A DNA stretch of 64,000 nt from a virus. How positions within the stretch are numbered: position 1 is the stretch's first letter; each line of letters opens with the position of its first letter. Positions 23,456-60,646 of the stretch are shown here, one piece after another. Both the position numbers and the translations under genes were made by a program. The notes below the pieces were generated by a model, which did not search any database, was not told the origin of the DNA, and saw only the letters and a list, made by a program, of their open reading frames with translations. The stretch spans positions 1-64,000 of the IMG/VR virus record IMGVR_UViG_3300012919_000005. One strand, 5' to 3'.

Positions 23456-25237
23456 CTATTTTCGTATGGTATAGATTTCAACGGGCTCATTCTTTCCTTT
23501 AACCTTTACTTGGTCTAAAAACTCGTAATCGTAATCATCGAGTAAACTGTGTTCGGAAATTATTAAGTCAGTATCGTACTCTTTACAACTTGATTCTAAA
23601 CGCGCAGCAAGGTTGACAGAATCCCCAAGAACGCTATAGTCGAAGCGAGTGCTAGAACCAAAGTTTCCGACCACGCAGAGTCCTGTATTGATTCCCGCTC
23701 CTGTATTAATTTGATCCAAGCCTTCTTCTCTGAGTCTTTCATTTAACTCTCCTAATGATTCTCGCATTTCGAGAACCGCCTTGGTTGCATTCTCCACTTG
23801 ATTTTCATCGTCAAGTGGTGCACCCCAAAATGCCATTATACAATCTCCCATATACTTGTCAATTGTACCGCCATGTTTTAATATAATCTCTGTTTGATTG
23901 TCTAAAAATCTATTTATTAACTCAGTTAATCCTTGTGGATCTTTTTGATATTTTTCCGATATTGGTGTAAATCCTCGAATATCAGAAAATAAAAATGTTA
24001 GTCGTTTTGTCTCCCCACCCAATCTCAGCAATGTTGGGTCTTTTTGTAATTTTTTAACCAAGGCAGGACTAACGTATGTCCCAAATTGTCGTTTTATTTC
24101 CATTTTCTCGAAGTAGGTCTTTATAAAATTCCTGAAACTTTCAATACTCCAGAATAAAATCGATATTAAAATAATGCCTGAAACGTCAAATAAGTAAGAA
24201 GATTGAAAGGCATACCAGGCTCCATATGCTGAACCTCCTACAACTAGCACTAAAGCGGGCAAGCTTAAATAAATTCTACTAGCTGTTAGTAATAAAACGA
24301 GCAAAGCTAAGACTGCAGCTCCTAGCTCCGCTCCTGCACTCCAATTTGGAATTGAAGGCGCTGTGCCTGATACTAAATTATGCAATACATTTGCTTGTAC
24401 CTCATGCGGGTATTTAGCTCCAGATGCAGTAGGAACTGGATTTACCACTCCTTCTGCTGTTACTCCAAATATAACAAAAGGTGCAGGAATTGGATCAGCC
24501 ATATATTGTGCTGCAGTTTGTCTATAAAACTTTACATTCGTATTTATCCAAATAAACCCATTAGCATCGGTATTCATATTTGGATAGTTAGGAACTCGAA
24601 TCCACTCTACACCTGTATCTCCAGTTTTAATTTGATAGCTTGGGTCGCCTACAGCGAGTCTAAGCATTTCTAGTGCAAAACTTGGGTATATTTTTCCCTC
24701 ACTTCCTACGACTACGGGCAGTCGCCTGACGACGCCGTCTAGCTCTGGTGAGGAGTTTACGATACCTTTGCCGTCTGCGCTTACCGATAAGATTGGTAAT
24801 TGTCGTAAAATTCCTGGATATGTTAATAGCCATTCTAATGGATCACCTCCTAATTGAGCAGTACCTACATGAGGGCCTAGCTCAGATGCTTGTGTTGATG
24901 CTGCGTAAGCTAACACTGTGGGTTTATTGGCTAATGCACTTGCTAAGTACAAGTCATTTTCGTTGCCACGTAAATCTGGGTCAGGCATAAGAATAGTAAA
25001 GCCCCCTATTCCAGGAGTCCTTTCTATCATTTGTCCATATAGTTTTCTTGGAAGTGGATAACCTCCGTATGCTTCGACGATGTTTTCATCGATGTCGACA
25101 ATTAGAATATTGTCATTTTGAATTTCTGGTTGACTATTCATAATATAGTCGAATGTTTTTAGTTCTAGAATTTGTAGAGGGTACGGATTCCAGATAAAGA
25201 ATCCGAGTACCACTCCAAAAGTAATTAATCTTACCAT
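23456..25237 (-). CDS. CHASE2-domain adenylate/guanylate cyclase
   Basis: 593 aa. Signal-anchor at residues 1-20; CHASE2 sensor about 30-290 outside the inner membrane (ILIVDIDENIV, GGYPLPRKLYG); membrane helices about 303-370; class III cyclase domain about 410-593. Catalytic residues appear intact: metal Asp419 (FLFSDIRGFT) and Asp465 (YMGDCIMAF), purine-binding Lys461, transition-state Asn542 and Arg546 (GDSVNLAARLE). It should make a cyclic nucleotide, most likely cAMP, in response to an envelope signal. Last gene of the cargo block; its ATG overlaps the preceding stop. Host-derived acquisition is likely. Confidence 0.93.
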   Translation of the reverse strand: MVRLITFGVVLGFFIWNPYPLQILELKTFDYIMNSQPEIQNDNILIVDIDENIVEAYGGYPLPRKLYGQMIERTPGIGGFTILMPDPDLRGNENDLYLASALANKPTVLAYAASTQASELGPHVGTAQLGGDPLEWLLTYPGILRQLPILSVSADGKGIVNSSPELDGVVRRLPVVVGSEGKIYPSFALEMLRLAVGDPSYQIKTGDTGVEWIRVPNYPNMNTDANGFIWINTNVKFYRQTAAQYMADPIPAPFVIFGVTAEGVVNPVPTASGAKYPHEVQANVLHNLVSGTAPSIPNWSAGAELGAAVLALLVLLLTASRIYLSLPALVLVVGGSAYGAWYAFQSSYLFDVSGIILISILFWSIESFRNFIKTYFEKMEIKRQFGTYVSPALVKKLQKDPTLLRLGGETKRLTFLFSDIRGFTPISEKYQKDPQGLTELINRFLDNQTEIILKHGGTIDKYMGDCIMAFWGAPLDDENQVENATKAVLEMRESLGELNERLREEGLDQINTGAGINTGLCVVGNFGSSTRFDYSVLGDSVNLAARLESSCKEYDTDLIISEHSLLDDYDYEFLDQVKVKGKNEPVEIYTIRK

Positions 25238-25521
25238 TTAACTTTGTTTGCCCAATAAGCTGCAGACATTTTTCCTTTGGCTATGTTTCTTCTATGTCTT
25301 GCTTTGAATGAAGCTCTTTTCTTCTTCATTCTCATTGATTCACCTTTCTTTGGTTTACCAGCAGTTTTTGCTCCCTGCTGTCCAAATCGTATTGTCTTTA
25401 TTTTGTTGCCTACTTTAGCAACTACAATATGAGACTTCTTAGGGTGTCCAGGTGTTCTTTTTGGTTTATTAAAACCTCTAACGCCTGCTCTTTTTAGTCT
25501 TGGATCTTTTTTTCTTGGCAT
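25231..25521 (-). CDS. Basic protein, DUF6321-like
   Basis: 96 aa, Lys/Arg-rich. Motifs KKSHIVVAKVGNKIKTIRFG and the ending KARHRRNIAKGKMSAAYWAN match a phage/viral family of unknown function that I recall as DUF6321. Overlaps the preceding basic gene by 44 nt and the cyclase start by 7 nt. Possible DNA-associated protein. Confidence 0.75.
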   Translation of the reverse strand: MPRKKDPRLKRAGVRGFNKPKRTPGHPKKSHIVVAKVGNKIKTIRFGQQGAKTAGKPKKGESMRMKKKRASFKARHRRNIAKGKMSAAYWANKVKW

Positions 25522-25801
25522 TGTTTGCTCTCCTTAAACTTGCCTTACCAGATTTAAATACTGATGCGACAGTTTTCTTGCCCATAACTTTTGCTCGTTG
25601 TTCTCCTACAGTTAGTATTTGAATTTTTCTAGCATAAGACTTACGGACTCTTTTTACTTTTCGTACTGTTGCTCTTGCATCTTTTACAGTTGCAAATTTA
25701 ATTCTAACGGTATCTTTTGGATTCTCGTCAGTATAGAGTCTTCTTCCAGACCCCTTAGGTTTTTTACCTGTTCCTTTTTTTGGATCTCTTTTCTTACTCA
25801 T
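25478..25801 (-). CDS. Basic phage protein with GSGRRLYTDENPKDT motif
   Basis: 107 aa, strongly basic at both ends. The core KGSGRRLYTDENPKDTV and ARKIQILTVGEQRAKVMGK is, to my memory, conserved in marine myoviruses without known function. The Lys/Arg C-terminus (AKKKRSKTKKSRR) suggests nucleic-acid binding. Confidence 0.72.
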   Translation of the reverse strand: MSKKRDPKKGTGKKPKGSGRRLYTDENPKDTVRIKFATVKDARATVRKVKRVRKSYARKIQILTVGEQRAKVMGKKTVASVFKSGKASLRRANNAKKKRSKTKKSRR

Positions 25802-26225
25802 TGTCTATTATTACCCAAGTATTATTTATAACTACTAACGCACCAAGTGTGTTAAAATTTTCTATTGTTTCAATGTCTTCAAAAACATTCATTGTATATA
25901 GTAAATAATTAACTGCTAATTTTTGAGCTATCAATCTTTCTAAAGAAGGATAGTCTGGTAGTAAAGGATTTAGCTCTTTTCCGTACCTTCCACGTATTGC
26001 TCTATTTGTAGTGTATACATCAAGTACATTCCAAGCAACCCATTCATGAATATGTGAGTTATCTGACATTTTAAAATGCATTGTTTGATTTTGATTGTAT
26101 TGTTCTATGAGTAAAGCATCTGCTTTAATTTGTTCATAGTCCCAAGGTATATCAACCTCCAGATTGGCGGATTGTAATGACTGAGCCAGACCCAGAGTTA
26201 AGAATAATGTTATAAGCTTTTCCAT
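25794..26225 (-). CDS. Secreted/periplasmic protein, DUF5658-like
   Basis: 143 aa with a signal peptide (LITLFLTLGLAQSLQSA, residues 3-19). The region WNVLDVYTTNRAIRGRYGKELNPLLP resembles the DxxTT...ENP pattern of DUF5658-type proteins. It overlaps the FecR gene by 74 nt and is likely co-translated with the curli-type cluster. No specific function known. Confidence 0.65.
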   Translation of the reverse strand: MEKLITLFLTLGLAQSLQSANLEVDIPWDYEQIKADALLIEQYNQNQTMHFKMSDNSHIHEWVAWNVLDVYTTNRAIRGRYGKELNPLLPDYPSLERLIAQKLAVNYLLYTMNVFEDIETIENFNTLGALVVINNTWVIIDNE

Positions 26226-27270
26226 CTTGTTCTATTATTATATTATAACTTGTAGTGCCATTTAAATCAAGTCTCACATTTTGATTAACTTGTCTTAAAA
26301 TGCTTACTACTTCCCCATCTGTAAATGTGGTAATTTGGGTTGTGGGGTCATTCCCAAATTGTGTACCTTGTAAATCTATAGGCGAAAAGCCATCTTGGGC
26401 TAACTCGTCCTCAGAGGATAGAGCATCTAGTTCTTCAATAACATCTAATAAATCCTCTAAAAAGTTTACGTCTAAGTATTCGATATCTAGTTCTGTGAAT
26501 TCTAATTCATCTGTAGCTAAATAATCTGTTTCTAACTCGTCGTAATCGAGGAAATCGATATCAAGAATATTGTTATCAGAGTCGTCAGTTCGAGCTTCTC
26601 CTGCAGTTTGTCCTTCTTCATCTTTCTTTGGTGGGCTCACTATGAGCATATTATCTATGAGGTCTAGTGTCAGATCCAGTATTACTGGTCTAGTAGGAAT
26701 TGCTTCCCATACACTCGTAACAGTAGACTCATATGGTTTGTTTAAAATTACAGAACCCAAAGCAGTTGTTACGACAATCTCCCCTGAGCTTATACCAAAT
26801 TCGTCTGGTAAAAGAATAACCAAACTTCTTCCTAATTCATCAACGGTAACAGTAAAATCTGTCCCACGAATTGCTATCTGAGAAGTTGGTGTTGATAGAT
26901 TAATGTTTTGTTTATTAATACTACCTATCTTTCCAGTTATAAAACGAGCAGTCCCACTGGCAAACTTAAGTGCCATTTCTGACTTGTTTGGGTCGGGATT
27001 AAAAACAACCTTATCAATAATAAGTTTGCTATGCTCTGTTAGTCTGACTTTGCTATCATCTAAAAACGATATTGCTAATCGGCCATTACCTGTGCGAACA
27101 TCGTCCATTTGCTGTATGTCAAAGCCAACCTCAGCGGTATAGGTGTCATCTCGTAAGACAGCACCTATTCCACGAAGTTCTGTGATATCACCTATATTGT
27201 CAGCATGAAGTGGAGGTGCCACCATCATTTTGAACAATACAAATATTTGAATTAGATGTATCAGCTTCAA
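26152..27270 (-). CDS. FecR-domain secreted protein
   Basis: 372 aa. Signal peptide residues 1-23 (LIHLIQIFVLFKMM...HA). FecR domain about 30-170: RGIGAVLRDDTY, DDVRTGNGRLAISFLDDSKVRL, GTARFITGKIG, TPTSQIAIRGTDFTV. A very acidic Asp/Glu/Leu linker spans about 220-290. The last 45 residues (QNVRLDLNG...IIIEQDGKAYNIIL...ITIRQSGG) look like curlin repeat strands. It overlaps the curlin-like gene by 71 nt. FecR proteins are often next to CHASE2 cyclases in bacteria and may relay an envelope signal; a surface-fibre adaptor is the alternative. Confidence 0.85.
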   Translation of the reverse strand: MKLIHLIQIFVLFKMMVAPPLHADNIGDITELRGIGAVLRDDTYTAEVGFDIQQMDDVRTGNGRLAISFLDDSKVRLTEHSKLIIDKVVFNPDPNKSEMALKFASGTARFITGKIGSINKQNINLSTPTSQIAIRGTDFTVTVDELGRSLVILLPDEFGISSGEIVVTTALGSVILNKPYESTVTSVWEAIPTRPVILDLTLDLIDNMLIVSPPKKDEEGQTAGEARTDDSDNNILDIDFLDYDELETDYLATDELEFTELDIEYLDVNFLEDLLDVIEELDALSSEDELAQDGFSPIDLQGTQFGNDPTTQITTFTDGEVVSILRQVNQNVRLDLNGTTSYNIIIEQDGKAYNIILNSGSGSVITIRQSGG

Positions 27271-27916
27271 TTTTCAACCAGTCTGCTGCAAGTGTAGAAG
27301 ATTGAGTAATAGTCATTGTATTACTATCTCCGTCTAAATCTAAATAGAAATAAGCGGCATCGCTACTGCTTGCTCCGTATCCACTGCCTGTGAATGTAAG
27401 TGTATTAGAGTCTCCTAAAATGTCCATGTAATTTGTGGCGTATGCAGAATCTAAGTCTAGAGTGATTTCATTACTGTCACCAGTAAATAACCAGTCTAAG
27501 TCTAAATACGATACGTCATCATCTTGGCCTAAGTCGATATCTGCTGTGTTTGAAGAACCAGTAATGTCAAAATTTAAATTAACATAGTCTGCTCCGTTTA
27601 AACCATCAGTATCCATACTTATAGTCCATTCGTTAGAGTCACCAATAAAATCAAATGTTCCAGTGAAGTTATCACCTATTATTCCGTCAGTAAGAAATAA
27701 GTTGGAGGCTCCTATTTGATTTAAATCTAATGTCCAAGAGGTGCCATTTAATATTGCTGCTGTCATTGAACCTGTTGTTGCATTTAATCCACCAATTAAA
27801 TTGCTGGAACCAAGTTGTTCAATATCTATTGCTGCATTGTCACCTGTTTGGTCGATATAGATTTCATTGTCTGCATAGAGACCGATTGATAAAAATAAGG
27901 CAAATAAAGCTCTCAT
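27200..27916 (-). CDS. Curlin-like secreted fibre protein
   Basis: 238 aa. Signal peptide residues 1-16 (MRALFALFLSIGLYA). The mature part has about seven imperfect 25-30-residue repeats built on xDxxGxSNxxxI, for example IYIDQTGDNAAIDIEQ, FIGDSNEW, ITGSSNTADI, FTGDSNEITL, LGDSNTLTF, LDGDSNTMTI. This Gln/Gly/Asn ladder is the hallmark of curlins (CsgA/CsgB), which stack into amyloid. It is more acidic than CsgA and has two Cys in the last 17 residues. It directly follows csgG, the channel that would export it. Confidence 0.85.
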   Translation of the reverse strand: MRALFALFLSIGLYADNEIYIDQTGDNAAIDIEQLGSSNLIGGLNATTGSMTAAILNGTSWTLDLNQIGASNLFLTDGIIGDNFTGTFDFIGDSNEWTISMDTDGLNGADYVNLNFDITGSSNTADIDLGQDDDVSYLDLDWLFTGDSNEITLDLDSAYATNYMDILGDSNTLTFTGSGYGASSSDAAYFYLDLDGDSNTMTITQSSTLAADWLKIEADTSNSNICIVQNDGGTSTSC

Positions 27917-27917
27917 T

Positions 27918-28769
27918 TTACTCTCCCATGTAGTACTTCCAGTACCCTTTCTCTATTCCTTGTTTAATTAACGCTACTACTCCTGTTTCTACTGCTGCTT
28001 GCACAGCGATATACTTAGGTTCATTCATTGTGTTTCCACTTTCAAATTCAACGAGTTCAGTATCATTTGAATGAAATCTAAAATAGTCATTACTTAAACC
28101 TACGGATAGAATTGCTTTTGAAGTAAGGATCTCCAATAAGATTTCTCCTGTACTCACAGAAACTAATCTCATAGAAACGATTACCTTATCTTCACGATAT
28201 TGTTTAGAAGTGCCAATGCCTAAGTTTCTAGCACCTACACCTCCAGTTAATAAGTTAGTATTGTAATCAACAATACCACCTTCGATAATAAGACCAGCAA
28301 ACAGTAAAGGTTGCTGCTCTTTATCGTCTTCAAAACTTTGTCTTGTTTGTCTAATTAATTGTCTTTCTTTTGTTAAGTGGTCTAACCCTTTTCTTTCTAC
28401 CACTTTGAAGAAGCCGGATTGTTTTAATGCACGAATTAAATATGCTTCTGGTGCTTGTGTGACTGCACTTGAGAAGTCTGCTATACCGTCCCTTGATTTT
28501 CTTTGACCAGTTAAGTCTTCAAACTTATATACTGCAACAACAGGAACTCGTGCCGGTAATGGCACAGTAGTTATTGCTTTTGTTATCGGTTGCTCAATAA
28601 TAGAATCACCAGAGAAACATTTTGCTTCTCCAACAATTGTGACTAAGTCTTTGTAATCCCCTTGAGGATTAGTTAGACAGGGTGATGCGTATTTCCAGTG
28701 CGTTGCGCAACTAGAAACCAAAATCGCCGATAGGGATAGTAATAGTAGTTGTTTCACCTGTAGCTTCAT
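27918..28769 (-). CDS. csgG: Curli secretion channel lipoprotein CsgG
   Basis: 283 aa. Signal peptide with lipobox LVSSC (lipidated Cys21). Close to Escherichia coli CsgG along its length, especially VVAVYKFEDLTGQ, VERKGLDHLTKERQLIRQ, GGVGARNLGIG, VSMRLVSVSTGEILLEILTSKAIL. In the constriction loop the aromatic of CsgG Phe56 is kept (ADFSSAV), while Asn55 is Asp and Tyr51 is not conserved, so pore selectivity may differ. CsgG nonamers form the outer-membrane channel for curlin. CsgF lies immediately upstream, curlin immediately downstream. Confidence 0.95.
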   Translation of the reverse strand: MKLQVKQLLLLSLSAILVSSCATHWKYASPCLTNPQGDYKDLVTIVGEAKCFSGDSIIEQPITKAITTVPLPARVPVVAVYKFEDLTGQRKSRDGIADFSSAVTQAPEAYLIRALKQSGFFKVVERKGLDHLTKERQLIRQTRQSFEDDKEQQPLLFAGLIIEGGIVDYNTNLLTGGVGARNLGIGTSKQYREDKVIVSMRLVSVSTGEILLEILTSKAILSVGLSNDYFRFHSNDTELVEFESGNTMNEPKYIAVQAAVETGVVALIKQGIEKGYWKYYMGE

Positions 28770-29196
28770 TAAATATAGTTAGGGTGATTGATATACCATC
28801 TGATGTCCAAGTAATTAGATTATCAAATAATGTAAATGACCCTTCCGTTGCAGGATTCTCTCCAAATAGCTGGTCTACCAACTGTCTAGAAAGCTGTGCA
28901 TAAATTCTACTCTCAAAGTTCTTTAAAAATCTAGCAAGAGTAGTATTATCTTCTTCTCTTTGCAAAGCTTCTTGCATTGCTTTTATTTCTAGTCTTAGTG
29001 CCTCTTTTCTTGAGAACTCTTGATTCTCAATGGTTAAGTAGTGACTTGATGTACCTATGCCACTAAAAGAGGGTGACTTGAATTCATGTTTAATTTCATC
29101 TGCAGAAAGTTCTGCTACAAATAAAACGCTAAGTAGTACAAAAATTGTGCCTAGTACAGCATTAGATACTCTATTGTTTATTTTTCTTTCGTTCAT
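28711..29196 (-). CDS. csgF: Curli assembly factor CsgF
   Basis: 161 aa with a signal peptide (VLGTIFVLLSVLFVAELSA). The mature start HEFKSPSFSGIG matches CsgF TFQFRNPNFGG, the part that plugs into the CsgG pore, and the C-terminal half has SRQLVDQLFG and ITLTIFNEATGETTTITIP like CsgF. CsgF sits on the outside of CsgG and anchors the nucleator. It overlaps csgG by 59 nt. No CsgE, CsgC or CsgD homologue was seen in the window. Confidence 0.9.
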   Translation of the reverse strand: MNERKINNRVSNAVLGTIFVLLSVLFVAELSADEIKHEFKSPSFSGIGTSSHYLTIENQEFSRKEALRLEIKAMQEALQREEDNTTLARFLKNFESRIYAQLSRQLVDQLFGENPATEGSFTLFDNLITWTSDGISITLTIFNEATGETTTITIPIGDFGF

Positions 29197-29425
29197 TTTC
29201 TTTTAACTGTAAAACTGTGTCCAGTTTCTTTTGCAGTCGAATCATATCATTATCTAACATTCTTATCTGGTCAATTAACTGTAAGATTGTCATCTTCATG
29301 TCTTCGATTGCAGGGTCTATCTTTTCGGTTACTGTAGTCCAAACAAAGTATACGAAATATCCTAATCCAACCATTGCAACAACTGGAAAACCAAATTGTT
29401 GAATAGCATCAATCACGTCTTGCAT
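29171..29425 (-). CDS. Small membrane protein, UviB/BhlA-like (copy 2)
   Basis: 84 aa: one membrane helix (FPVVAMVGLGYFVYFVW, residues about 13-29) then a charged coiled coil ILQLIDQIRMLDNDMIRLQKKLD. This resembles UviB/BhlA holin-like proteins common in marine phages. It appears to be a paralogue of the gene just upstream (shared MxNDMIxI/L pattern). Precedes csgF with overlapping reading frames. Confidence 0.72.
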   Translation of the reverse strand: MQDVIDAIQQFGFPVVAMVGLGYFVYFVWTTVTEKIDPAIEDMKMTILQLIDQIRMLDNDMIRLQKKLDTVLQLKENERKKNKQ

Positions 29426-29702
29426 CTATACTTCCTGATTCTACAAAATTTTCTGCTCTTGCTATTTTATCTAAGTCTGGTGTGAGTCCAAGAGCTGAAC
29501 TTACACTCATGTCTATCTTAATCATATCATTGTTCATTGTTTTAATACGAGTAATTAGCATTTTTGAAATACCTTGTACTTCACAAGTATCGCCTACTAC
29601 ATCGTCCATAATTTTTCTTATGATTAAAAAGATGAAGCCTCCCATAAACAGTGCTGCTGCTATTGGTGCTCCTACTTGTCCTATTATATCAAATACTTCC
29701 AT
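29409..29702 (-). CDS. Small membrane protein, UviB/BhlA-like (copy 1)
   Basis: 97 aa: N-terminal membrane helix (GAPIAAALFMGGFIFLIIRK) and a following helix with ITRIKTMNNDMIKIDMSV. Same plan as its downstream neighbour. ATG overlaps the stop of nothing but follows the Fe-S carrier gene at once. Could be a holin or a virion membrane component. Confidence 0.7.
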   Translation of the reverse strand: MEVFDIIGQVGAPIAAALFMGGFIFLIIRKIMDDVVGDTCEVQGISKMLITRIKTMNNDMIKIDMSVSSALGLTPDLDKIARAENFVESGSIDARRD

Positions 29703-30067
29703 TATACCTCTATTGCGAATATTTTATCTTTATCTACCTTTTCTAAATCAAAATTTATTGAAACTCCACAACCACAAGAAGACTGCTCTTTTGGGTTGAT
29801 AAACTTAAATACTTCATTTAGTCCTTCTACTTGAAAGTCTAATGTCATTCCTACTAAGTATGGAACTGATATTTTATCTATTAGTATCCTAAAGAGTCCA
29901 TAATCCAATTCCACGTCTTCTTCAGTAGCTGCATTATTAGTCCGATCAAATACATACTCAAAACCAGCACACCCCCCACCAGTAATACCCAAGCGGATAC
30001 CAGTAAACTTCTCTCTTTCCTGTTTCTCCAAAATCTTGGTGATTGCTTCATCTGTAATCTCTATCAT
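29702..30067 (-). CDS. A-type iron-sulfur carrier (IscA/ErpA-like)
   Basis: 121 aa, normal length. The three family cysteines are present: Cys33 (GGGCAGFEY) and Cys98-x-Cys100 (SSCGCGVS). Such proteins receive [2Fe-2S] or [4Fe-4S] clusters from scaffolds and pass them to targets. The ATG overlaps the stop of the preceding small gene. In the same operon as an IscU-like scaffold, so it forms a minimal scaffold-plus-carrier pair without cysteine desulfurase; sulfur would come from the host IscS. Confidence 0.95.
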   Translation of the reverse strand: MIEITDEAITKILEKQEREKFTGIRLGITGGGCAGFEYVFDRTNNAATEEDVELDYGLFRILIDKISVPYLVGMTLDFQVEGLNEVFKFINPKEQSSCGCGVSINFDLEKVDKDKIFAIEV

Positions 30068-30258
30068 GGCATATTGTCGCCGTAGAACTCTCTACATTGC
30101 TCTTCAAAGTCTGAATCCCAGTATTCGTCTGTTTTCTTTTTATTTTTGTGAACTTGAGTTCTGCCGTGCTTTGGTGTCTTTTTTCGTGTGAATATCTTAT
30201 CGTAGTTATCTCTGAACTGCTTTTCGTTTGTTGGTCTTCGTTTGCTTCCCTTTCCCAT
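30064..30258 (-). CDS. Small basic phage protein (MGKGSKRRPTN motif)
   Basis: 64 aa: MGKGSKRRPTNEKQFRDNYD then KIFTRKK, a conserved phage N-terminus of unknown role. Sits between the IscU-like and IscA-like genes and overlaps the latter's start by 4 nt. Confidence 0.75.
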   Translation of the reverse strand: MGKGSKRRPTNEKQFRDNYDKIFTRKKTPKHGRTQVHKNKKKTDEYWDSDFEEQCREFYGDNMP

Positions 30259-30314
30259 CTTCTACTAATCTCCAAACATTTTGTATTCTATTTTGTTTCA
30301 TAAACTTATGAATA

Positions 30315-30728
30315 TCATTTATTATCTTTGTCATGTTGCTTCTGCTCCCAGTTTTCAATTGCTTTTTTAATCGAATCTTCAGCTAAAACAGAACAGTGTA
30401 ATTTTATTGGAGGCAATTGTAATGCCTCGGCTATGTCTTTATCTTTTATTAATTTGGCTTCTTCTATGCTAAGGCCTTTCAGCATTTCAACAAACATAGT
30501 AGAGGAAGCAATTGCGCTTCCACAACCATAGGTCTTAAACTTGATATCTGTAATAATATCGTTTTCATCTAGTTTAAGTTGTAACTTCATGACATCACCA
30601 CATGCGGGTGCTCCTGTCATTCCTGTTGCTACATTTGGGTCTTTTGGATCAAACCGACCGACGCTAAACTGCTGCGGACTGTTCAAGACTCCGTAAAATC
30701 TTTCTGTGACTTCTTTACTATAGGCCAT
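30315..30728 (-). CDS. iscU: IscU-type iron-sulfur scaffold
   Basis: 137 aa. All active-site elements are intact: Cys43 and Asp45 (APACGDVMKL), Cys69 (TYGCGSAIASS), the HscA-binding LPPIK loop (about 105-109) and Cys112 (KLHCSVLAED). This is a complete IscU rather than a fragment of NifU. It should build clusters with host IscS. Its ATG overlaps the terS stop (TAATG), tying its synthesis to the packaging gene. Likely acquired from a proteobacterium. Confidence 0.96.
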   Translation of the reverse strand: MAYSKEVTERFYGVLNSPQQFSVGRFDPKDPNVATGMTGAPACGDVMKLQLKLDENDIITDIKFKTYGCGSAIASSTMFVEMLKGLSIEEAKLIKDKDIAEALQLPPIKLHCSVLAEDSIKKAIENWEQKQHDKDNK

Positions 30729-34469: not shown

Positions 34470-34597
34470 GTAAAAATCGGGTGCAACGATTAGAGGAGCG
34501 GTGGTTTTGGATAAGACTAATAATGGAATTTCTTAGAACGATGATTCCTGTTCTTGTCCTGATACTACAAATCGTTGTATTGCAGAAATTACTCTAG
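34466..34597 (+). CDS. Small membrane-anchored peptide (paralogue of 39926-40066)
   Basis: 43 aa; basic N-terminus then a membrane helix IPVLVLILQIVVLQKLL preceded by FLRTM. The same plan (IRTIVPVAVLILQVVILSK) is found in the gene at 39926-40066, so the two look like paralogues. ATGA overlap with the previous gene. Confidence 0.65.
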   Translation: MSKNRVQRLEERWFWIRLIMEFLRTMIPVLVLILQIVVLQKLL

Positions 34598-34648
34598 GTT
34601 TGCGATTTAAGGGAACGGCTTGGCTAGAGCCGTGAAAATCTAGCCATT

Positions 34649-34698
34649 AGCGTGGTGGATTCTTTACTCGACTGGTTGGATCCGCCACGCTTTTTTTT
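34649..34698 (+). terminator. Strong intrinsic terminator
   Basis: Long stem (GCGTGGTGGAT with ATCCGCCACGC, one G-U pair, 19-nt loop) followed by eight T. Ends the small rightward operon. Confidence 0.9.
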
Positions 34699-34931
34699 AT
34701 TTTTTATTTTTCTGCGCCTAAGTAGTAGTACGACGACGACTTTTGTAGCGCGTCAGCGCCAAAGTGCAAGTACGAAGTATAAAACTGGTCTGTCTGCGCG
34801 GCCGCGACATTTGTCCCATATTATGCGAAGTCTGTCCTTCCCTCCCCACCTACCCCATTATTATATCACAAAAATTTGAGCATGTCAAGAAAAATATGAA
34901 AAAACTTTTTTGAAAAAACTTTCGCAATTGC
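34699..34931. other. Gene-poor stretch with a leftward promoter
   Basis: No gene I can support on either strand. It contains a CG-rich patch near 34745-34810 and a leftward sigma70 promoter at 34860-34888 that would transcribe it. A 75-codon plus-strand frame here crosses the terminator and looks accidental. Confidence 0.6.
34860..34888 (-). promoter_or_regulatory. Leftward sigma70 promoter, no gene downstream
   Basis: Minus strand TTGACA, 17 bp, TATAAT. Transcript would cover about 34850 down to the region of the terminator at 34650-34698 with no coding frame. Confidence 0.75.
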
Positions 34932-34960
34932 TTGACAAAACCCATTTCGCCTTATATAAT
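34932..34960 (+). promoter_or_regulatory. Rightward sigma70 promoter
   Basis: TTGACA, 17 bp, TATAAT. ATG of the next gene is 7 nt past the -10, so the mRNA is predicted leaderless. Confidence 0.88.
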
Positions 34961-34967
34961 AATACAC

Positions 34968-35126
34968 ATGAAAAACGAAAAAACAATCGAAAAGGTCAAA
35001 AGACCAAACAAGAAAGTTTTATTACGCGAGATTGCTGACATGACTGGCAAAAGCATCAGAGACCTTGATAGCTTAGGAAGAAGCAACATCAGCACAATCG
35101 AATGGGTAAAAGAACTTGTGTCCTAA
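34968..35126 (+). CDS. Small basic protein on a predicted leaderless mRNA
   Basis: 52 aa from the ATG at 34968. Lys/Arg-rich N-terminus (MKNEKTIEKVKRPNKKVLLRE), then IADMTGKSIRDLDSLGRSN, which may be a helix-turn-helix. Expressed from the promoter directly upstream. Could be a regulator of the neighbouring RNA island; no family recognised. Confidence 0.65.
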   Translation: MKNEKTIEKVKRPNKKVLLREIADMTGKSIRDLDSLGRSNISTIEWVKELVS

Positions 35127-35210
35127 TTTCTGAAGTGTAAGCGACTTTATTACTCAACGCTAGACATCGGTCCCTATTGGCACGGGACGGTTGTCCGCTT
35201 TTGCGCGCCG

Positions 35211-35239
35211 ATTTTACCACATCTATTCTAGCTTGTCAA
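35211..35239 (-). promoter_or_regulatory. Leftward sigma70 promoter
   Basis: Minus strand TTGACA, 17 bp, TAAAAT. Would make a transcript antisense to the small gene at 34968-35126. Confidence 0.65.
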
Positions 35240-35564
35240 TACCTGCGTGAAAAATAATTCAACTTTTTTATTTGCTAAGTCTCCCTAAAACAAGGGTCTT
35301 GCCGACCTTCTCGCAAATCCCCTACAACCCCCATTCTTACTCACTTCGCAAACCTTATAAAATAGGGTTCTCCAGTGATAGTAAGTACTAACTATGCGAA
35401 GACCATGGCACAAGTGTTTCAAAGGTAGCCGCCCCGCGCGCCCAAGTGCGAAAACGATAAGTGCCAAAGTGGTGAGCCTGCGCCAATAAGTGCAAAACTG
35501 GTAAGTGCTAGGTCTACTTTAGTGGGCAAGTGGCCGCCGCGAGTCTAGAATAAGTCTTATTTAT

Positions 35565-35593
35565 ATTGTATCATGCTTTTAAAGACTTGTCAA
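35565..35593 (-). promoter_or_regulatory. Leftward sigma70 promoter
   Basis: Minus strand TTGACA, 17 bp, TACAAT. Transcript would read through the AAGTGC repeats. Confidence 0.7.
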
Positions 35594-35699
35594 GACTTTT
35601 GCTGACTTGCGCCGACTTTTTTAAGGCTTTGCTACGGTTTCGCGTCCGGCCCCCGAGAATTCCTTTGCGTAAGTTTATTAATATTTCTTTTGCATTTGC

Positions 35700-35728
35700 T
35701 TGACACTACATCAATAGCTTGATATAAT
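35700..35728 (+). promoter_or_regulatory. Rightward sigma70 promoter, no gene downstream
   Basis: TTGACA, 17 bp, TATAAT; the next 150 bases carry no reading frame with a ribosome site. Confidence 0.88.
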
Positions 35729-35734
35729 ATATAC

Positions 35735-35879
35735 ATAATTTGAAGTGAGGAAACCACCGAACACCAAAAGCGACCTACGGGTCGAGAGAGTAGAAGTGAT
35801 TCGCTGTAGGAATTGAAGCTATACGGCAAAGATTCAAAAAAATGTTGGCAGTCTTCCCCGAACTCGCTTTAAATTATAC
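35735..35879 (+). ncRNA. Candidate small non-coding RNA
   Basis: About 145 nt between one consensus promoter and the next. Contains a CGACC-TAC-GGGTCG hairpin near 35773-35790 and AG-rich segments. No clear terminator; the 3' end is unknown and it may run into the next transcript. Confidence 0.45.
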
Positions 35880-35908
35880 TTGACAAGACAATGTCAGCGT
35901 GATATAAT
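35880..35908 (+). promoter_or_regulatory. Rightward sigma70 promoter
   Basis: TTGACA, 17 bp, TATAAT; ATG of the 38-aa gene lies 8 nt after the -10. Confidence 0.88.
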
Positions 35909-35915
35909 ATTAAGT

Positions 35916-36032
35916 ATGAAACAGAAAAGATTACCGAAAAAAATGACTGCCGAGATGAAACTCGTAATAGTAAATCTAATAGCCATTGGAGTAGGAGTAG
36001 CAATACTGATATGGGACACATGGTTAAGGTAA
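35916..36032 (+). CDS. 38-aa membrane peptide on a leaderless mRNA
   Basis: Basic start (MKQKRLPKKMTAEMK) then one membrane helix LVIVNLIAIGVGVAILIW. Start codon sits at the predicted transcription start. Unknown function. Confidence 0.65.
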   Translation: MKQKRLPKKMTAEMKLVIVNLIAIGVGVAILIWDTWLR

Positions 36033-36056
36033 GTTTGAAAAAGATTAAGCAATCAC

Positions 36057-36085
36057 TTGACAAAACCTTAAACGCAGTATATAAT
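36057..36085 (+). promoter_or_regulatory. Rightward sigma70 promoter
   Basis: TTGACA, 17 bp, TATAAT, upstream of the HTH-like gene at 36122. Confidence 0.88.
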
Positions 36086-36121
36086 ATAAAGTATAAATTA
36101 AATATTAAAACAGGAGTAGAA

Positions 36122-36451
36122 ATGGCATCAGCTAAAAATTACACAGATGAAATGGTCAACACAATGACCGAACAATACCAAGCTAATCCGACAAGGGAAA
36201 CTGTTGACGCACTAGCAAGAGAATTTGGCAAAACTACAAGAAGTATTATTGCTAAGTTATCAAGAGAAGGCGTATATGTTGCTCAACCAAGAACAACAAA
36301 AACAGGCGAGCCTATCGTTAGCAAAAATGAGATTGTCAATGACATTGCTAGCCTTCTACAAGTTGAAGTTGATGACATCGCTTCTCTTGAGAAAGCAACA
36401 AAGATTGACCTCAGAAACTTAGTGGAAAGACTCGAAGCAGTCGTTCAGTAA
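36122..36451 (+). CDS. HTH-like DNA-binding protein (paralogue family member 1)
   Basis: 109 aa from the ATG at 36122 with AGGAG upstream. Core YTDEMVNTMTEQYQANPTRE, LAREFGKTTRSIIAKL and SREGVY form a three-helix Myb/SANT- or homeodomain-like unit. The same signature (GK, SII, KLSxEGVY) recurs at 40313-40639 and more distantly at 41391, 47171 and 51346. Likely a phage regulator or DNA-organising protein. Followed by an 8-bp hairpin. Confidence 0.75.
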   Translation: MASAKNYTDEMVNTMTEQYQANPTRETVDALAREFGKTTRSIIAKLSREGVYVAQPRTTKTGEPIVSKNEIVNDIASLLQVEVDDIASLEKATKIDLRNLVERLEAVVQ

Positions 36452-36460
36452 GAAAGTGAT

Positions 36461-36482
36461 GAGGTAGTGTTAAAACTACCTC
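36461..36482 (+). terminator. Hairpin after the HTH-like gene
   Basis: Perfect 8-bp inverted repeat GAGGTAGT/ACTACCTC with a 6-nt loop. It lacks a T-run, so it may stabilise the mRNA end rather than terminate. Confidence 0.5.
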
Positions 36483-36516
36483 GCCACAGTCAAGATAACC
36501 TCGTTAAAAATAGTTC

Positions 36517-36545
36517 TTGACAAAAGGTTATTAGCGAGATATAAT
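36517..36545 (+). promoter_or_regulatory. Rightward sigma70 promoter (twin of 36726-36754)
   Basis: TTGACA, 17 bp, TATAAT, with TTC before the -35. The flanks and spacer start are nearly identical to the promoter 209 bp downstream, suggesting duplication. Confidence 0.9.
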
Positions 36546-36551
36546 ATATCT

Positions 36552-36716
36552 TATAAAATAAAAAAAGAACAGTAGTGAAACTACGCAGACAATGACCAAC
36601 ATTGCGTAGTTTGAAAGTGGTAAACCTACTCTAGCTATGAAAAATACCCTATCACATAGCAGATAGTGCACTTTGGGAAAGTGGCGGGATTTAACTACTG
36701 AGCTCAAGAAAGTGAA
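36552..36716 (+). ncRNA. Candidate structured small RNA
   Basis: No reading frame. A perfect 10-bp stem (AAACTACGCA/TGCGTAGTTT, 15-nt loop, about 36583-36617) is followed by GCTATG/CATAGC with a 15-nt loop, and the motif GAAAGTGG occurs twice. It ends at or before the next promoter. Confidence 0.6.
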
Positions 36717-36725
36717 AAATAGTTC

Positions 36726-36754
36726 TTGACAAAAGGTTAAAAGCTTGATATAAT
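36726..36754 (+). promoter_or_regulatory. Promoter of the large non-coding RNA
   Basis: TTGACA, 17 bp, TATAAT; predicted start near 36761. Confidence 0.92.
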
Positions 36755-36760
36755 ATACAT

Positions 36761-37567
36761 ATCAAAAACAAAAAAAACAAGGGGATTTCTGACTCGCCAA
36801 GCAAGTAGTAATCTGAGCATTAGCCAGCATCACTACAGCGAGAGTCAGAAACCACGAGAGGCATCTCATTAAATATTGCCGTATGCTCTTTCAATGATTA
36901 GAGGGACACGATATCAGAGTAAATCATTCGACAGTTGCAGGTTGCTAGTAGTTAACAGATTCACGGAAGAATAAGGGAACTAGCCGTTTTAACTCAAACG
37001 ATAAGGAGTAAGTGCAATACTACAGCAGTAAGTGTGTAAGTGCGTAGTCTCAACCGATTCGGTAGCAGACATAAGAAGACCTTCTCACGAGGGCAAAGCC
37101 GACCAGTTAGCCTGTAGTTCCCACTTCTCGAGCAGTTTGTCGAAACTTAAAAACCTACGGGATTACGCAGTATTACAGTAGTAAAACAGTAAATCTTCGC
37201 GTGATTGACACCAGATACAGCGATAATATCAGGGAGTGTTTAGTAGCAAAACGCTTCGGTCATCAAGTCCTGCAGATGTAGGAAACGACAGATAAAGGTG
37301 AACTACCATAAGAACGGCATCTCTATCTCTAGTGTAAAAGTGATGATTGTAAAGAGACGCTATAGTAGACAAATGACTTCTCGAACATCATTTGAAGTTT
37401 GCTAGAGTTCTTTACCAAACTAGCACTTTCAACCTAGTGTAAAAGGTGTAGGTTTTTAGGACGCTATTGTAATAAAATGCCGACCTACTGCACGACAAAG
37501 GAGTAAACTTTCTAACTGTGTAAACAGATTAAGTTTGAAGGGCGACTCTTCGGAGTCGTCTTTTTTT
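36761..37567 (+). ncRNA. Large structured non-coding RNA (about 807 nt)
   Basis: No reading frame of 60 codons on either strand. Own consensus promoter and a textbook terminator. Clear helices include TTTCTGACTC/GAGTCAGAAA (36786-36795 with 36842-36851), GAGA/TCTC, AATGATT/AATCATT (36893-36899 with 36922-36928), GCTAGT/ACTAGC, ACCG/CGGT, GCGTAGTC/GATTACGC, GCTAG/CTAGC, AACCTA/TAGGTT, and near the 3' end AAACTT/AAGTTT enclosing CTGT-GTAA-ACAG with a GNRA tetraloop. A 12-nt motif pair repeats inside it. Size and phage setting recall large ornate RNAs such as GOLLD or ROOL; membership is unproven. Confidence 0.82.
37541..37567 (+). terminator. Intrinsic terminator of the large RNA
   Basis: Eight-bp stem GGCGACTC/GAGTCGTC with a TTCG tetraloop and seven T. 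Confidence 0.95.
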
Positions 37568-37616
37568 GTCTCAAATGCAGATATCACAAAATTTCAAGGT
37601 TAATTTAAAAAAGTTC

Positions 37617-37645
37617 TTGACAAACAACTTAACGCTTGATATAAT
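37617..37645 (+). promoter_or_regulatory. Rightward sigma70 promoter for the accessory operon
   Basis: TTGACA, 17 bp, TATAAT, 24 nt before an AGGAG/ATG start at 37669. Confidence 0.9.
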
Positions 37646-37668
37646 ATATAGTATAAAAAGGAGAAAAA

Positions 37669-38016
37669 ATGGATATATGGACAATGCTTAAACAAATTGA
37701 GAAGTCTGGAGACTGCTTAATTTATGGAGTGCTAGAGATACAAGGTGTAGCAGAAGATTTATCTGGCTGGCCTGAGTTCGATAGTAGTGAACCTATGAGC
37801 CACTTATATCTCATGGATTCACAGGACATACCAAAGCAACTTATGTTAGATGCCTTTCAAGTAGCATACAACAATACAAGTTGCGAGTATGACTCTTACA
37901 ACAATATGCTAGAAGCAGTTGGAGAGTATATAATAGAAGAATTAAAAAAGAAGCAGTGCGTATGTGGAACAATAGATTGTGAAGATGCATATGGCTGCGT
38001 AACACACGGAGTATAA
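37669..38016 (+). CDS. Hypothetical protein
   Basis: 115 aa, acidic. Middle has LYLMDSQDIPKQLMLDAFQVAYN; C-terminal Cys-rich tail CVCGTIDCEDAYGC could bind a metal. First gene after the promoter, with a strong AGGAG. No family recognised. Confidence 0.7.
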   Translation: MDIWTMLKQIEKSGDCLIYGVLEIQGVAEDLSGWPEFDSSEPMSHLYLMDSQDIPKQLMLDAFQVAYNNTSCEYDSYNNMLEAVGEYIIEELKKKQCVCGTIDCEDAYGCVTHGV

Positions 38017-38018
38017 GA

Positions 38019-38309
38019 ATGGCAGATAGTAGAAAAACGAAGGGAGTCAAAGGCGACCAAAGTGGTAAAGTGATGCCATTCCCAACTCTCGATAGAGTAG
38101 CATTCTATAGAGAACACTTACAAAGAAGTATGCGTTCTACATTAGAGTTATACTCTGAATACATAAACATACAGGATAGGCTAGTATCAGAAGTAATAGA
38201 GTGCGAAAACTGTATGCTAGAATTAGTAGAAGAAATAGGCAGACTTGAAAAAGTCTTAAATCAAACGGCAATACATCAAAAGGAGGTGCACGATGCCAGC
38301 AAAATTTAA
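38019..38309 (+). CDS. Coiled-coil hypothetical protein
   Basis: 96 aa; basic N-terminus then a long helix (FYREHLQRSMRSTLELY, ECENCMLELVEEIGRLEKVL) with a CxxC pair. Starts two bases after the previous stop. Unknown function. Confidence 0.65.
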   Translation: MADSRKTKGVKGDQSGKVMPFPTLDRVAFYREHLQRSMRSTLELYSEYINIQDRLVSEVIECENCMLELVEEIGRLEKVLNQTAIHQKEVHDASKI

Positions 38310-42025: not shown

Positions 42026-42421
42026 ATGACAATAGATAACCTATTATATAAGCACTTTCTCGGCTTTGACGAGAGATTTTTTAACCCTGTCGAAGATACA
42101 CAATATCCTCGACATAATATAGTAACACACGGTGATGACTACTTTCGAATTGAAATGGCGTTGCCAGGCTGGATAAAAGAGAACATTAAAGTCCAATTAG
42201 ACAAGCGAGTCTTGACTATTGAAGGCACACAAAAACTCGAGTGTGGAGAAGAAGAACAATATTTACACAAAGGAATAAGTGGAAAAATGTTTAAGAGAAC
42301 ATTCTCATTGGGTGAGTTCATAGAAATCCAAGGAGTAAAGTTTGAAAACGGCTTGCTAAGCATTGAATTAGAGAAAGTCATACCCGAAGATAAAAAACCA
42401 AAGGTATATGACATTCAATGA
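42026..42421 (+). CDS. Small heat-shock protein, Hsp20/IbpA family
   Basis: 131 aa with a full alpha-crystallin domain: YFRIEMALPGW, IKVQLDKRVLTIEG, YLHKGISGKMFKRTFSLGE, ENGLLSIELEK. The usual C-terminal IxI is reduced. ATP-independent holdase; phage copies may protect proteins during late infection. Has a dedicated promoter and structured leader. Confidence 0.93.
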   Translation: MTIDNLLYKHFLGFDERFFNPVEDTQYPRHNIVTHGDDYFRIEMALPGWIKENIKVQLDKRVLTIEGTQKLECGEEEQYLHKGISGKMFKRTFSLGEFIEIQGVKFENGLLSIELEKVIPEDKKPKVYDIQ

Positions 42422-47113: not shown

Positions 47114-47142
47114 TTGACAAATCTTTCAAAATTTAATATAAT
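47114..47142 (+). promoter_or_regulatory. Rightward sigma70 promoter
   Basis: TTGACA, 17 bp, TATAAT before the gene at 47171. Confidence 0.9.
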
Positions 47143-47170
47143 ATATTATAAATTTAGGAAAGATATCAAT

Positions 47171-47614
47171 ATGAGTGATAGATTTTATTTTCAGATGAAG
47201 CAGTCAACGGGTTGGTGCCCTGGCATGCCAGAATCTTACAAAAACAGGAGAAGAAGAATGTCAACTTGGACAGATGAAACAAAACAAGAAGCAGTAGAAT
47301 TATATACTGCTGAAGAACCAACTCCAGAAAACAGTATGGAGATTGTTGCTGACATAGCTGAGCAACTTGGACAAACACCTAATGGTGTTAGAATGATATT
47401 AACAAAAGCAGGAGTATATGTTAAGAAAACTCCAGCCGCTAAATCCTCAGGTGGAAGCACAGGTGGAACTAGAGTATCAAAACAAGACGCTCAAGAGAGC
47501 TTAAGTGCAGCAATCAGTGATGCAGGACACGATGTGGACATGGCAATCATTGATAAATTAACAGGTAAAGCAGCGAATTACTTTGCTGACATTATCAATA
47601 AACTAAACGCGTAA
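47171..47614 (+). CDS. HTH-like DNA-binding protein (paralogue family member 3)
   Basis: 147 aa from the ATG at 47171 (AGGAAAG upstream); an internal ATG at 47258 is a second option. Short Cys/Arg-rich head (STGWCPGMPESYKNRRRRM), then WTDETKQEAVELY, IVADIAEQLGQTPNGVRMIL, TKAGVY, the family unit, and a Gly/Ser linker to a helical tail. Single gene with own promoter and terminator. Confidence 0.75.
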   Translation: MSDRFYFQMKQSTGWCPGMPESYKNRRRRMSTWTDETKQEAVELYTAEEPTPENSMEIVADIAEQLGQTPNGVRMILTKAGVYVKKTPAAKSSGGSTGGTRVSKQDAQESLSAAISDAGHDVDMAIIDKLTGKAANYFADIINKLNA

Positions 47615-48316: not shown

Positions 48317-48610
48317 ATGATTATAAAAGGAAACATGGGCTACGACCAACACGGGCGTAAAAGAAAGAGAAGACCACTTAGCAGGAAACGACCTAAAGCC
48401 AAACTTGGCTGGTCGGTAGTAAAGCGAAAAGAGTATACAGAAAACAAAAAAAGAAATGAAATAAAAAGTGCACCTATAGGAGAGTATAAAGTTCCTAAAG
48501 ACACTTCTTATAAAAAAGAAATAAGTAAACAATACACAGTCTCTATTGCATATAACAAAGGTGCCTACCAAGTTATACCTAATAGTGACATTGAGCATAT
48601 AGGCAAATGA
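48317..48610 (+). CDS. Conserved basic phage protein
   Basis: 97 aa from the leaderless ATG at 48317, or 91 aa from the ATG at 48335, which has AAGGA. Basic first half (RKRKRRPLSRKRPKAK), conserved end YKKEISKQYTVSIAYNKGAY, which I recall from marine T4-like phages. Precedes the ligase with a 4-nt overlap. Confidence 0.7.
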   Translation: MIIKGNMGYDQHGRKRKRRPLSRKRPKAKLGWSVVKRKEYTENKKRNEIKSAPIGEYKVPKDTSYKKEISKQYTVSIAYNKGAYQVIPNSDIEHIGK

Positions 48611-49539
48611 TAGACAAATTAGTTAGAACAGCAGCGCAAGCATATTATGAAGGCAATCCCATCATGTCAGATGAGATATATGACCACTTATTAGAACTTG
48701 CAAGTATCGAAGATGTAGGCTACTCAGCCAATTCAGAAAAAAGATTTCCACATTTATATCCAATGTTTTCCCTACAAAAAATTTGGGACGCAGAGGATAG
48801 ACCTATGTGGAAAGAAGCATTTGTTAGTCCAAAACTAGATGGAGCCGCAGTAAGCATTCTTATTGGTGAAGGTATTTTACAAAAAGTACTAACACGAGGT
48901 GACGGTAAAGAAGGACTTGACATCACACATCTTATGAGATATAAACTTCCAACACATTTTCCAAATCAAGGAGTGTATCAGATAACAGGAGAAGTAGTAG
49001 CACCTAAAAGTATACCAAATGCAAGAAACTATGCTGCAGGAGCGTTGGGGCTAAAAGATGCAGAAGAGTTTAAAACACGAGATGTTAGATTTGTAGCATA
49101 CGGTATAGAGCCTTCTCCAACAGAAGATTATCATAACGATTTAAGATTCATAGAAACATTAGGATTTACAACAGTAAAAAACTTATCTAACCCTGAGAAA
49201 TATCCACAAGATGGTATGGTTGTTAGAATGATGAATAATGCAGACTTTTACGATGCAGGATTTACTAGTCACCACCCAAGAGGAGCATATGCTCTGAAAG
49301 AAAGAGAGAAGGGAGTAGTTACAAAACTACTTGATGTAGAGTGGCAAGTTGGAAAATCAGGAGCAGTATCTCCAGTTGCAATATTAGAACCTGTTATGAT
49401 AGAAGACGCAGTAGTTAGTAGAGCAAGTTTACATAATAAAGGAATCATAGAGGCGCTTGAACTAGAAATAGGTTGTCAAGTAGAAGTAATTAGAGCGGGA
49501 AAAATAATCCCACAAATAGTAGGAAGGATAGATGTTTAG
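48607..49539 (+). CDS. ligA: NAD-dependent DNA ligase, subunit A (adenylation and OB domains)
   Basis: 310 aa. Catalytic KLDG near residue 76 (VSPKLDGAAVSI), TRGDGKEG, NYAAGALGLKD, DGMVVRM and the OB-fold GAVSPVAILEPV...VIRAGKIIPQI. A shortened Ia-like N-terminus (YYEGNPIMSDEIYD) is present. The zinc, helix-hairpin-helix and BRCT domains are in a separate gene at 50591, as in phage T5. Confidence 0.93.
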   Translation: MIDKLVRTAAQAYYEGNPIMSDEIYDHLLELASIEDVGYSANSEKRFPHLYPMFSLQKIWDAEDRPMWKEAFVSPKLDGAAVSILIGEGILQKVLTRGDGKEGLDITHLMRYKLPTHFPNQGVYQITGEVVAPKSIPNARNYAAGALGLKDAEEFKTRDVRFVAYGIEPSPTEDYHNDLRFIETLGFTTVKNLSNPEKYPQDGMVVRMMNNADFYDAGFTSHHPRGAYALKEREKGVVTKLLDVEWQVGKSGAVSPVAILEPVMIEDAVVSRASLHNKGIIEALELEIGCQVEVIRAGKIIPQIVGRIDV

Positions 49540-57122: not shown

Positions 57123-57502
57123 AAAAATTAATTTTTTGGATAGTAGATTGCTGGAGACTTGTTATGGATATGAGATATAATCCTCTAAGACATATAAAAG
57201 ACCCATCAATACAAATGTATTTCTATCTAGCACTCTTTATTATGTGGAGTGGTTACTTTTCTGTAGTAGCATGGACATGGTTAGCATGGGAAAACTATAG
57301 TGTAGTTGTATCAATTATTATACATATGGCTGTATTAGTTCCCCTATTTATTACTACTCAGATATTTGCAGAAGCAGAAAAGAATGGTTCCAAATGGTAT
57401 AGACAATACCGAACTGAACAAAGCATTGAAGCGATGAATCAAAGACTTAAACAAAGAAACTATGAAAAGCGTGTAAAATGGGATATAGATAGAGAAGCAT
57501 GA
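57119..57502 (+). CDS. Membrane protein of the cytochrome/DoxX cassette
   Basis: 127 aa; two membrane helices (FYLALFIMWSGYFSVVAWTW, VVVSIIIHMAVLVPLFITT) and a basic cytoplasmic tail. ATGA overlap with polA and with the cytochrome gene. No family recognised. Confidence 0.7.
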   Translation: MKKLIFWIVDCWRLVMDMRYNPLRHIKDPSIQMYFYLALFIMWSGYFSVVAWTWLAWENYSVVVSIIIHMAVLVPLFITTQIFAEAEKNGSKWYRQYRTEQSIEAMNQRLKQRNYEKRVKWDIDREA

Positions 57503-58399: not shown

Positions 58400-58605
58400 A
58401 GAAAAGAGGATATGAAGAACAACTACAGTTTAATTTACATAAACCAAGAGACGCAACTCCTAAAGAGTTTGAAGATTGGTATAAAGATGAATTAGAGCCT
58501 TGGGGAGAAAAGCAACTATCCATAGTATTTGTTATGGCACTAGTACAGTTTTCCGCATTGGCTTTTATGATGCTTTCTTTCTTTGTCATAGGGAGAGGAC
58601 TATGA
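58396..58605 (+). CDS. Small membrane protein
   Basis: 69 aa: acidic soluble start (TPKEFEDWYKDELEPWGEK), one C-terminal helix (SIVFVMALVQFSALAFMMLS). ATGA overlaps on both sides; part of the same cassette. Confidence 0.65.
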   Translation: MKKRGYEEQLQFNLHKPRDATPKEFEDWYKDELEPWGEKQLSIVFVMALVQFSALAFMMLSFFVIGRGL

Positions 58606-60582: not shown

Positions 60583-60615
60583 TCTAGGTAACAAAGTAGG
60601 TCAGAAAAATAATGC

Positions 60616-60644: not shown

Positions 60645-60646
60645 AT

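Follow-up and report, generated by a model that had tools for sequence, protein, structure and literature searches.

A structured RNA of about 0.8 kb, predicted to be a stand-alone non-coding transcript, from a family of phage RNAs without a match in Rfam

The window, that is, the whole 64,000-nt stretch of DNA that was analysed, comes from a virus record of 75,528 bases. For its terminase the best match among phage isolates was about 49% identical (Pectobacterium phage My1), and for its DNA polymerase about 45% (Proteus phage PM135); we take both phages to be T5-like. PG07, among the terminase matches listed, is filed under Demerecviridae. An NAD-dependent DNA ligase was recognized by eye in two separate ORFs (48607-49539 and 50591-51334), and a split ligase occurs in T5-like phages. 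Bacterial-type accessory genes lie at 23456-30728, 42026-42421 and 57499-62229, and include CHASE2 with nucleotide cyclase, FecR-like, curlin repeat, CsgG, CsgF, NifU-like, HSP20, cytochrome c, DoxX and AhpC/TSA genes. The locus described here contains the following features.

36122..36451, + strand: gene of a 109-aa DNA-binding, D5-like protein (PHROG 1725 and 323)
36517..36725, + strand: small promoter-driven, ORF-less unit directly 5′ of the large RNA (12/12 promoter at 36517-36545)
36726..36754, + strand: sigma-70 promoter of the large RNA (TTGACA-N17-TATAAT, 12/12, TG before the −10 element)
36761..37567, + strand: large structured non-coding RNA (ORF-poor; homologues and covariation)
37537..37564, + strand: intrinsic terminator (12-pair stem, UUCG loop, T-tail)

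An earlier note on this DNA had claimed that 36761-37567 has its own promoter and terminator and no coding frame, and both claims were borne out. The 12/12 promoter and the UUCG-loop terminator with its T-tail are present, and the longest ORFs inside the unit encode 49 aa (+ strand) and 47 aa (− strand). A scan of 2.2 kb (35600-37800, threshold 9/12) gave seven promoter-like sites, which is not above shuffles (mean 5.5); outstanding were six 12/12 sites with 17-nt spacers, all on the + strand. Terminator-like sites in the same scan numbered five, versus 1.2 in shuffles. The large RNA ends at its own terminator and the gene 3′ of it has its own 12/12 promoter at 37617, indicating that the RNA is neither the leader nor a riboswitch of that gene, and this candidate was rejected. 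Judged by these signals, 36761-37567 is a stand-alone unit of ~0.8 kb; its transcription is inferred, and the length of 807 nt was deduced from promoter and terminator, without transcript data.

The RNA was compared with that of its closest relative, L002, which is ~94% identical. There were 53 substitutions in 807 nt, falling 19/17/17 on the three codon phases, and eight indel columns, while the flanking genes had 1.8% and 1.7% substitutions, with 15 indel columns in the second. A coding gene was rejected because no ORF exceeds 49 aa and the substitutions ignore codon phase. DNA similar to the small unit 36517-36725, a possible small RNA, was found in L002/L082 (one contig), L003 and L004. 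Another promoter-driven, ORF-less unit at 35700-35875 is also a possible small RNA, with similar DNA only in L002/L082.

Relatives were collected via the 109-aa protein, which has very many in IMG/VR; the best 80 among the matches listed were used. Downstream of the gene, 73 of the 80 loci have a stretch of 800 nt or more between one promoter and the next. Among the exceptions, L034 lies on a contig that stops too early; an additional promoter match divides the stretch in L011, L022 and L068; L054 and L075 seem to be units of less than 700 nt; and L055 has no matching upstream promoter. These stretches and the window formed 55 clusters at 90% identity. A terminator-like hairpin with a T-run preceded the next promoter in 61/80 regions, the hairpins being quite different from one another. 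Iterated nhmmer with the window RNA as the only seed reached 62 of 81 regions.

The elements assigned within the RNA are as follows.

36786..36851, + strand: 5′ domain, closed by a 10-bp stem (36786-36795/36842-36851) read from the sequence
36852..37039, + strand: domain I (alignment A3 and tree-based test)
36856-36859/36864-36867, + strand: domain I hairpin, with loop pair 36863-36876
36880-36882/36908-36910, + strand: domain I helix
36886-36889/36900-36903, + strand: domain I hairpin, crossed by 36893-36897/36924-36928
36944-36949/36979-36984, + strand: domain I helix, crossing in relatives a small hairpin absent from the window
36985-36989/36996-37000, + strand: domain I hairpin
37131..37258, + strand: core (alignment counts, covariance models)
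37134-37138/37143-37147, + strand: core helix H1, with loop pair 37139-37154
37155-37158/37178-37181, + strand: core helix H2, crossing H3
37166-37170/37195-37199, + strand: core helix H3, crossing H2
37210-37217/37227-37234, + strand: core helix H4, crossed by H5
37200-37201/37221-37222, + strand: core helix H5, a pseudoknot
37235-37239/37251-37255, + strand: core helix H6
37370..37493, + strand: 3′ domain, partly supported (helices 37371-37376/37388-37393 and 37437-37440/37490-37493)
37516-37527, + strand: GNRA hairpin CUGU-GUAA-ACAG, read from the sequence

A full-length alignment of 25 diverse sequences was unusable because it had too many gaps. Domain I (A3, 23 sequences, window 36852-37039) and the core (A4, 17 sequences, window 37131-37255) were considered separately, each aligned with MAFFT without structure. 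A4 holds 17 of the 28 sequences of alignment A2; the other 11 were omitted because an insertion makes them misalign there. Paired cells amounted to 95.8% in A3, versus 74.2% when shuffled and 25-48% with partners slid, and to 84.1% in A4, versus 64.7% and 29-46%. Changes on both sides were seen in 22 of the 31 pairs of A3, whose weakest pair was unpaired in 18/23 sequences, and in 20 of the 29 pairs of A4, whose weakest helices were H3 (74%) and H6 (73%). Helices were named by eye on the alignments and then counted on those same alignments. H5 and the pair 37139-37154 are freer tests because they are absent from the fitted model: in a 43-sequence alignment the outer pair of H5 was paired in 42/42 (CG 21, GC 17, AU 4), its inner pair was GC in 42/42, and 37139-37154 was paired in 30/32. 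Taking both regions together, there are four helices that form pseudoknots by crossing another helix. A small motif is repeated, in that a loop base of each of the hairpins 36856-36867 and 37134-37147 pairs 13-15 nt downstream, and both pairs covary.

In the tree-based test, seven pairs of A3 and two of A2 lay beyond every simulated alignment, each with at least 96% standard pairs; with the alignment counts given above, this shows compensatory changes in excess of what phylogeny explains. Further down the ranking (E 0.07-0.5), 3/8 of the listed pairs in A3 and 2/5 in A2 were not good base pairs. The E-values are rough because they come from a simplified R-scape-like script in which substitutions are re-dealt along the tree. 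Covariation does not separate pairing within a molecule from pairing between molecules.

Outside these two regions, a 10-bp stem was found at the same position in 14/24 sequences; in 13 it scored higher than every one of 50 shuffles, and in the remaining one there was a tie. The stem occurs with four different sequences, one of which accounts for most cases. In the 3′ domain, the pair 37374-37390 covaries in nine sequences and was unreached by 20 simulations, while another group of sequences gave one pair at 0.45 and a third group none. Double compensatory changes relative to L002 occur at 37438-37492 and 37439-37491. A consensus fold of the window and L002 had five double compensatory, six one-sided consistent and no pair-breaking changes, the fold having been chosen on those same two sequences. 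The 3′ third of the RNA is its poorest-supported part. A 10-bp complement used by the lowest-energy fold, 37149-37158/37448-37457, was set aside since it competes with H2; in L002, the substitutions at 37149 and 37456 each break one of its pairs, and the one at 37450 makes another pair G-U. Covariation establishes the folds of domain I and the core, and the 5′ stem and the 3′ domain are partly supported.

Folding energy was low for the window RNA (z −3.84, 20 shuffles). Six model-matched relatives gave z from −1.41 to +0.91 (12 shuffles each), versus −1.42 to −1.73 for three unmatched gaps and +0.23, −2.60 and −2.69 for three other pieces of the window (12 shuffles). Since the relatives were no better than the controls, folding energy is not evidence here and −3.84 is not a feature of the family. 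The structured non-coding RNA proposed in the earlier note is supported by covariation and homologues, not by folding energy; the absence of covariation, which the note had named as a refutation, does not apply, for covariation is strong in domain I and the core, and nor does its second refutation, since no coding signal was seen; both the perfect 10-bp stem and the GNRA-capped 3′ hairpin that it described were located. We regard it as practically certain that 36761-37567 exists as a structured RNA.

Two covariance models of the core were used, and their E-values rest on a shortened calibration. R1, built from A4, matched 58 of 85 sources at E<0.01; 17 of these had gone into R1 itself, and the core motif had retrieved three. 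Given 23 further sources, R2, built from 43 aligned matches, matched seven at E<0.01. Together they matched 61 of the 80 anchor loci (E<0.01), a count that includes L053 (E 0.016 with R1, used in building R2). The contigs are often near-duplicates, and the 61 loci correspond to 42 of 56 clusters. The 19 loci unmatched at E<0.01 comprise L034, which is too short, L041, L071 and L072, which were not among R2's sources and stand without R2, and 15 that were missed or weak. Three loci (L008, L065 and L081) have gaps of ~1.2-1.3 kb 3′ of the anchor gene without an R1 or R2 match up to E 10; it is possible that these hold a further diverged or replaced RNA. When whole records were scanned, a core match at E<=0.01 was found in 15/20 and a second match at that level in none; many of these 20 had contributed to the model, and ICP1 was among the five without a match.

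Among the matches listed, BLAST detected the large RNA in none of 50,697 phage records: the window RNA matched 300 isolate records, and the best 20 of the 300 all lay within 36716-36785, which is the promoter and the start. No match was obtained with domain I and the core of the relative L028 against phage isolates, or with the core model against one Demerecviridae isolate, and the core motif was not found in the bacterial genomes searched. The protein profile led to one Flavobacteriaceae MAG contig, in which the core is present (E 0.0009). No description of the ~0.8-kb RNA was found in the open-access literature searched. The fact that the RNA is present in 61/80 examined loci indicates that it is probably not a passing passenger in that phage lineage.

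The gene upstream of the RNA has to be considered as a possible partner. The structure model of the 109-aa protein has six helices (mean pLDDT 90, pTM 0.56); a fold search with it gave no match at E<=0.001, and the protein had no match in phage isolates. Its PHROG matches are DNA-binding families, and searches from the RNA side returned the gene consistently: the core motif found 19 contigs, all 19 with the 109-aa gene upstream (16 were already in the protein-search set), and a second motif found 20 contigs, with the gene in 10/10 of those having more than 900 nt upstream. The RNA might thus bind protein, sequestering or cooperating with one, possibly the D5-like neighbour, to time phage transcription. 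We consider this unlikely, though it fares best among the alternatives. A 72-aa gene further downstream is present in 54/56 loci and five other families in 40-45, while the gene directly 3′ of the RNA is present in just 18/56. The whole region is syntenic, so linkage of RNA and gene is expected without interaction, and the neighbour need not be the partner. A paralogue at 40313-40639 matches PHROG 1725 and falls in the same cluster, yet the record has only one core match, and 800 nt is large for a decoy. Proteins at 47114-47614 and 51346-52065 also resemble the D5-like protein by eye.

Antisense matches of the RNA to the rest of the window were no longer than 13 nt, and ten shuffles gave 11-14 nt. 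Antisense action on the phage's other genes was therefore rejected; host targets are outside this test. This weakens the proposal that the RNA is a base-pairing regulator or sponge of host or phage messages, in which the structure merely carries exposed loops, and so does the nature of the conserved parts, which are largely helices and crossing helices. It retains the consensus promoter and the precedent of phage-borne pairing RNAs (PMC13192938, in the part of that article available), and we give it little weight.

A second ORF-poor stretch lies at 34597-35700. Similar DNA occurs 5′ of the 109-aa gene in many loci (nhmmer gave 42 and 88 rows, counting duplicates), with repeats like AAGTGC-N-AAA, and the fold of 35127-35700 was ordinary on both strands (z −0.46 and +1.42). 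This stretch is perhaps an origin or control region. RNA II of ColE1 is a primer RNA at a replication origin, and the large RNA, which lies close to this second conserved non-coding stretch (34.6-35.7 kb) and near a switch of gene direction, might likewise be an origin transcript, a primer RNA or another element of an origin region. This is improbable in our view: a terminator closes the RNA, and the constraint falls on RNA pairing.

The earlier note had left the RNA unassigned, likening it to GOLLD and ROOL in length and phage setting, had thought it possibly a new class and had proposed an Rfam covariance search. None of the 4227 families of Rfam 15 reached its gathering threshold in the window, and 18 loci gave only tRNAs; permissive scans gave only tRNAs in 11 loci and noise at 34500-38100. 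A known Rfam family was thus rejected, including OLE RNA, presumably RF01071, which had no match in the window. GOLLD (RF02032, gathering 150 bits) was rejected with 0/20 records over the cut-off, its best score of 7.7 bits not being at the RNA, and ROOL (RF03087, gathering 99.1 bits) with 0/20 records at E<=10 and no appearance in the permissive scans. Fourteen control genomes likewise gave nothing over the cut-off for GOLLD and nothing for ROOL, so that neither search had a control above its cut-off. No tRNA gene is present in the window; tRNA-Glu adjoins the large RNA in 6/81 regions (L050, L051, L077-L079 and L010), before it in five and after it in one. A GOLLD, ROOL or other known large RNA diverged beyond recognition by covariance models would fit the size range, the phage setting, this tRNA-Glu and the division, known from GOLLD, into better and less well conserved parts, but the blank GOLLD, ROOL and permissive Rfam searches make it very improbable. 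The likeness in size and setting holds, no assignment to a known family was obtained, and a new class is possible.

The best overall explanation is a stand-alone ncRNA of ~0.8 kb, belonging to a phage family absent from Rfam and acting through its shape, for which we put the chances at about even. A host-type RNA polymerase would start the RNA at the consensus sigma-70 promoter and stop at the intrinsic terminator. The RNA folds into hairpins held together by helices that cross; its closed 5′ domain is followed by domain I, then by a core that is deeply conserved and finally by a 3′ domain that changes fast. By inference, it may be made in high amount during infection, and may act by self-assembly or as a scaffold for host or phage molecules, not as antisense or coding RNA. 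Action as a three-dimensional body like that of GOLLD or ROOL is a tentative inference by analogy, without expression or assembly data. Somewhat more doubtful still is a wider proposal, that these ornate phage RNAs form a class of their own that shares no descent with GOLLD and ROOL, has a distinct pseudoknotted fold and a distinct RNA-only or RNA-protein assembly, and would be a third independent origin of cage-scale RNA in phages; most of the examined phages in a diverse, uncultured T5-like lineage would carry it (core matched in 61/80 loci).

Why phages carry very large RNAs without a known job is an open question that rests on few classes. The present family is rich in sequences that differ widely, its secondary structure has been tested and includes crossing helices, its 5′ and 3′ ends are probable, and the RNA could be transcribed from a construct in the test tube. 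Should the RNA assemble, phages would have arrived at cage-scale RNA repeatedly; should it not, the cage idea would be less general.

Among known systems, an unclassified RNA of ~800 nt is the most abundant transcript of Vibrio phage ICP1 (PMC7567579, as far as the available part of that article goes) and resembles the present RNA in length, ORF-less space and lack of classification. The two differ in that no core match was found in the ICP1 gap and its edges (<=6.9 bits, R1 with filters off); the best R2 match, 19.7 bits, lies elsewhere in the ICP1 record, and homology with the ICP1 ncRNA was rejected. What follows on the assemblies and features of GOLLD, ROOL and OLE is taken from PMC12286853, apart from the length, hosts and ribonucleoprotein of OLE, which are given in abstracts of other papers. 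OLE, like GOLLD and ROOL, forms RNA-only assemblies; it is an ornate large bacterial RNA with an RNA-only dimer, and is unlike the present RNA in being ~600 nt long, found in extremophile and anaerobe bacteria and part of a ribonucleoprotein. GOLLD, which rises during lysis, is a stand-alone phage RNA of ~0.8 kb with pseudoknots, often near tRNA genes. The present RNA shares with it the stand-alone ORF-less phage unit of that size, the pseudoknots and the more and less conserved regions, and tRNA-Glu adjoins it in the 6/81 regions given above; it differs in having its conserved core in the middle of the molecule, no covariance-model match and no expression or cage data. The RF03087 model of ROOL matched nothing in 20 records, without a positive control, and the link to either RNA is an analogy of size, setting and complexity only, membership of neither having been demonstrated. 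ROOL is similarly a large, pseudoknotted phage RNA of unknown function, and it forms cages. A ROOL pairing earlier found by covariation proved to be a contact between molecules, so some pairs of the present RNA may be so too; in view of this and of the known assemblies of large RNAs, self-assembly is reasonable to test first, though it is not a finding.
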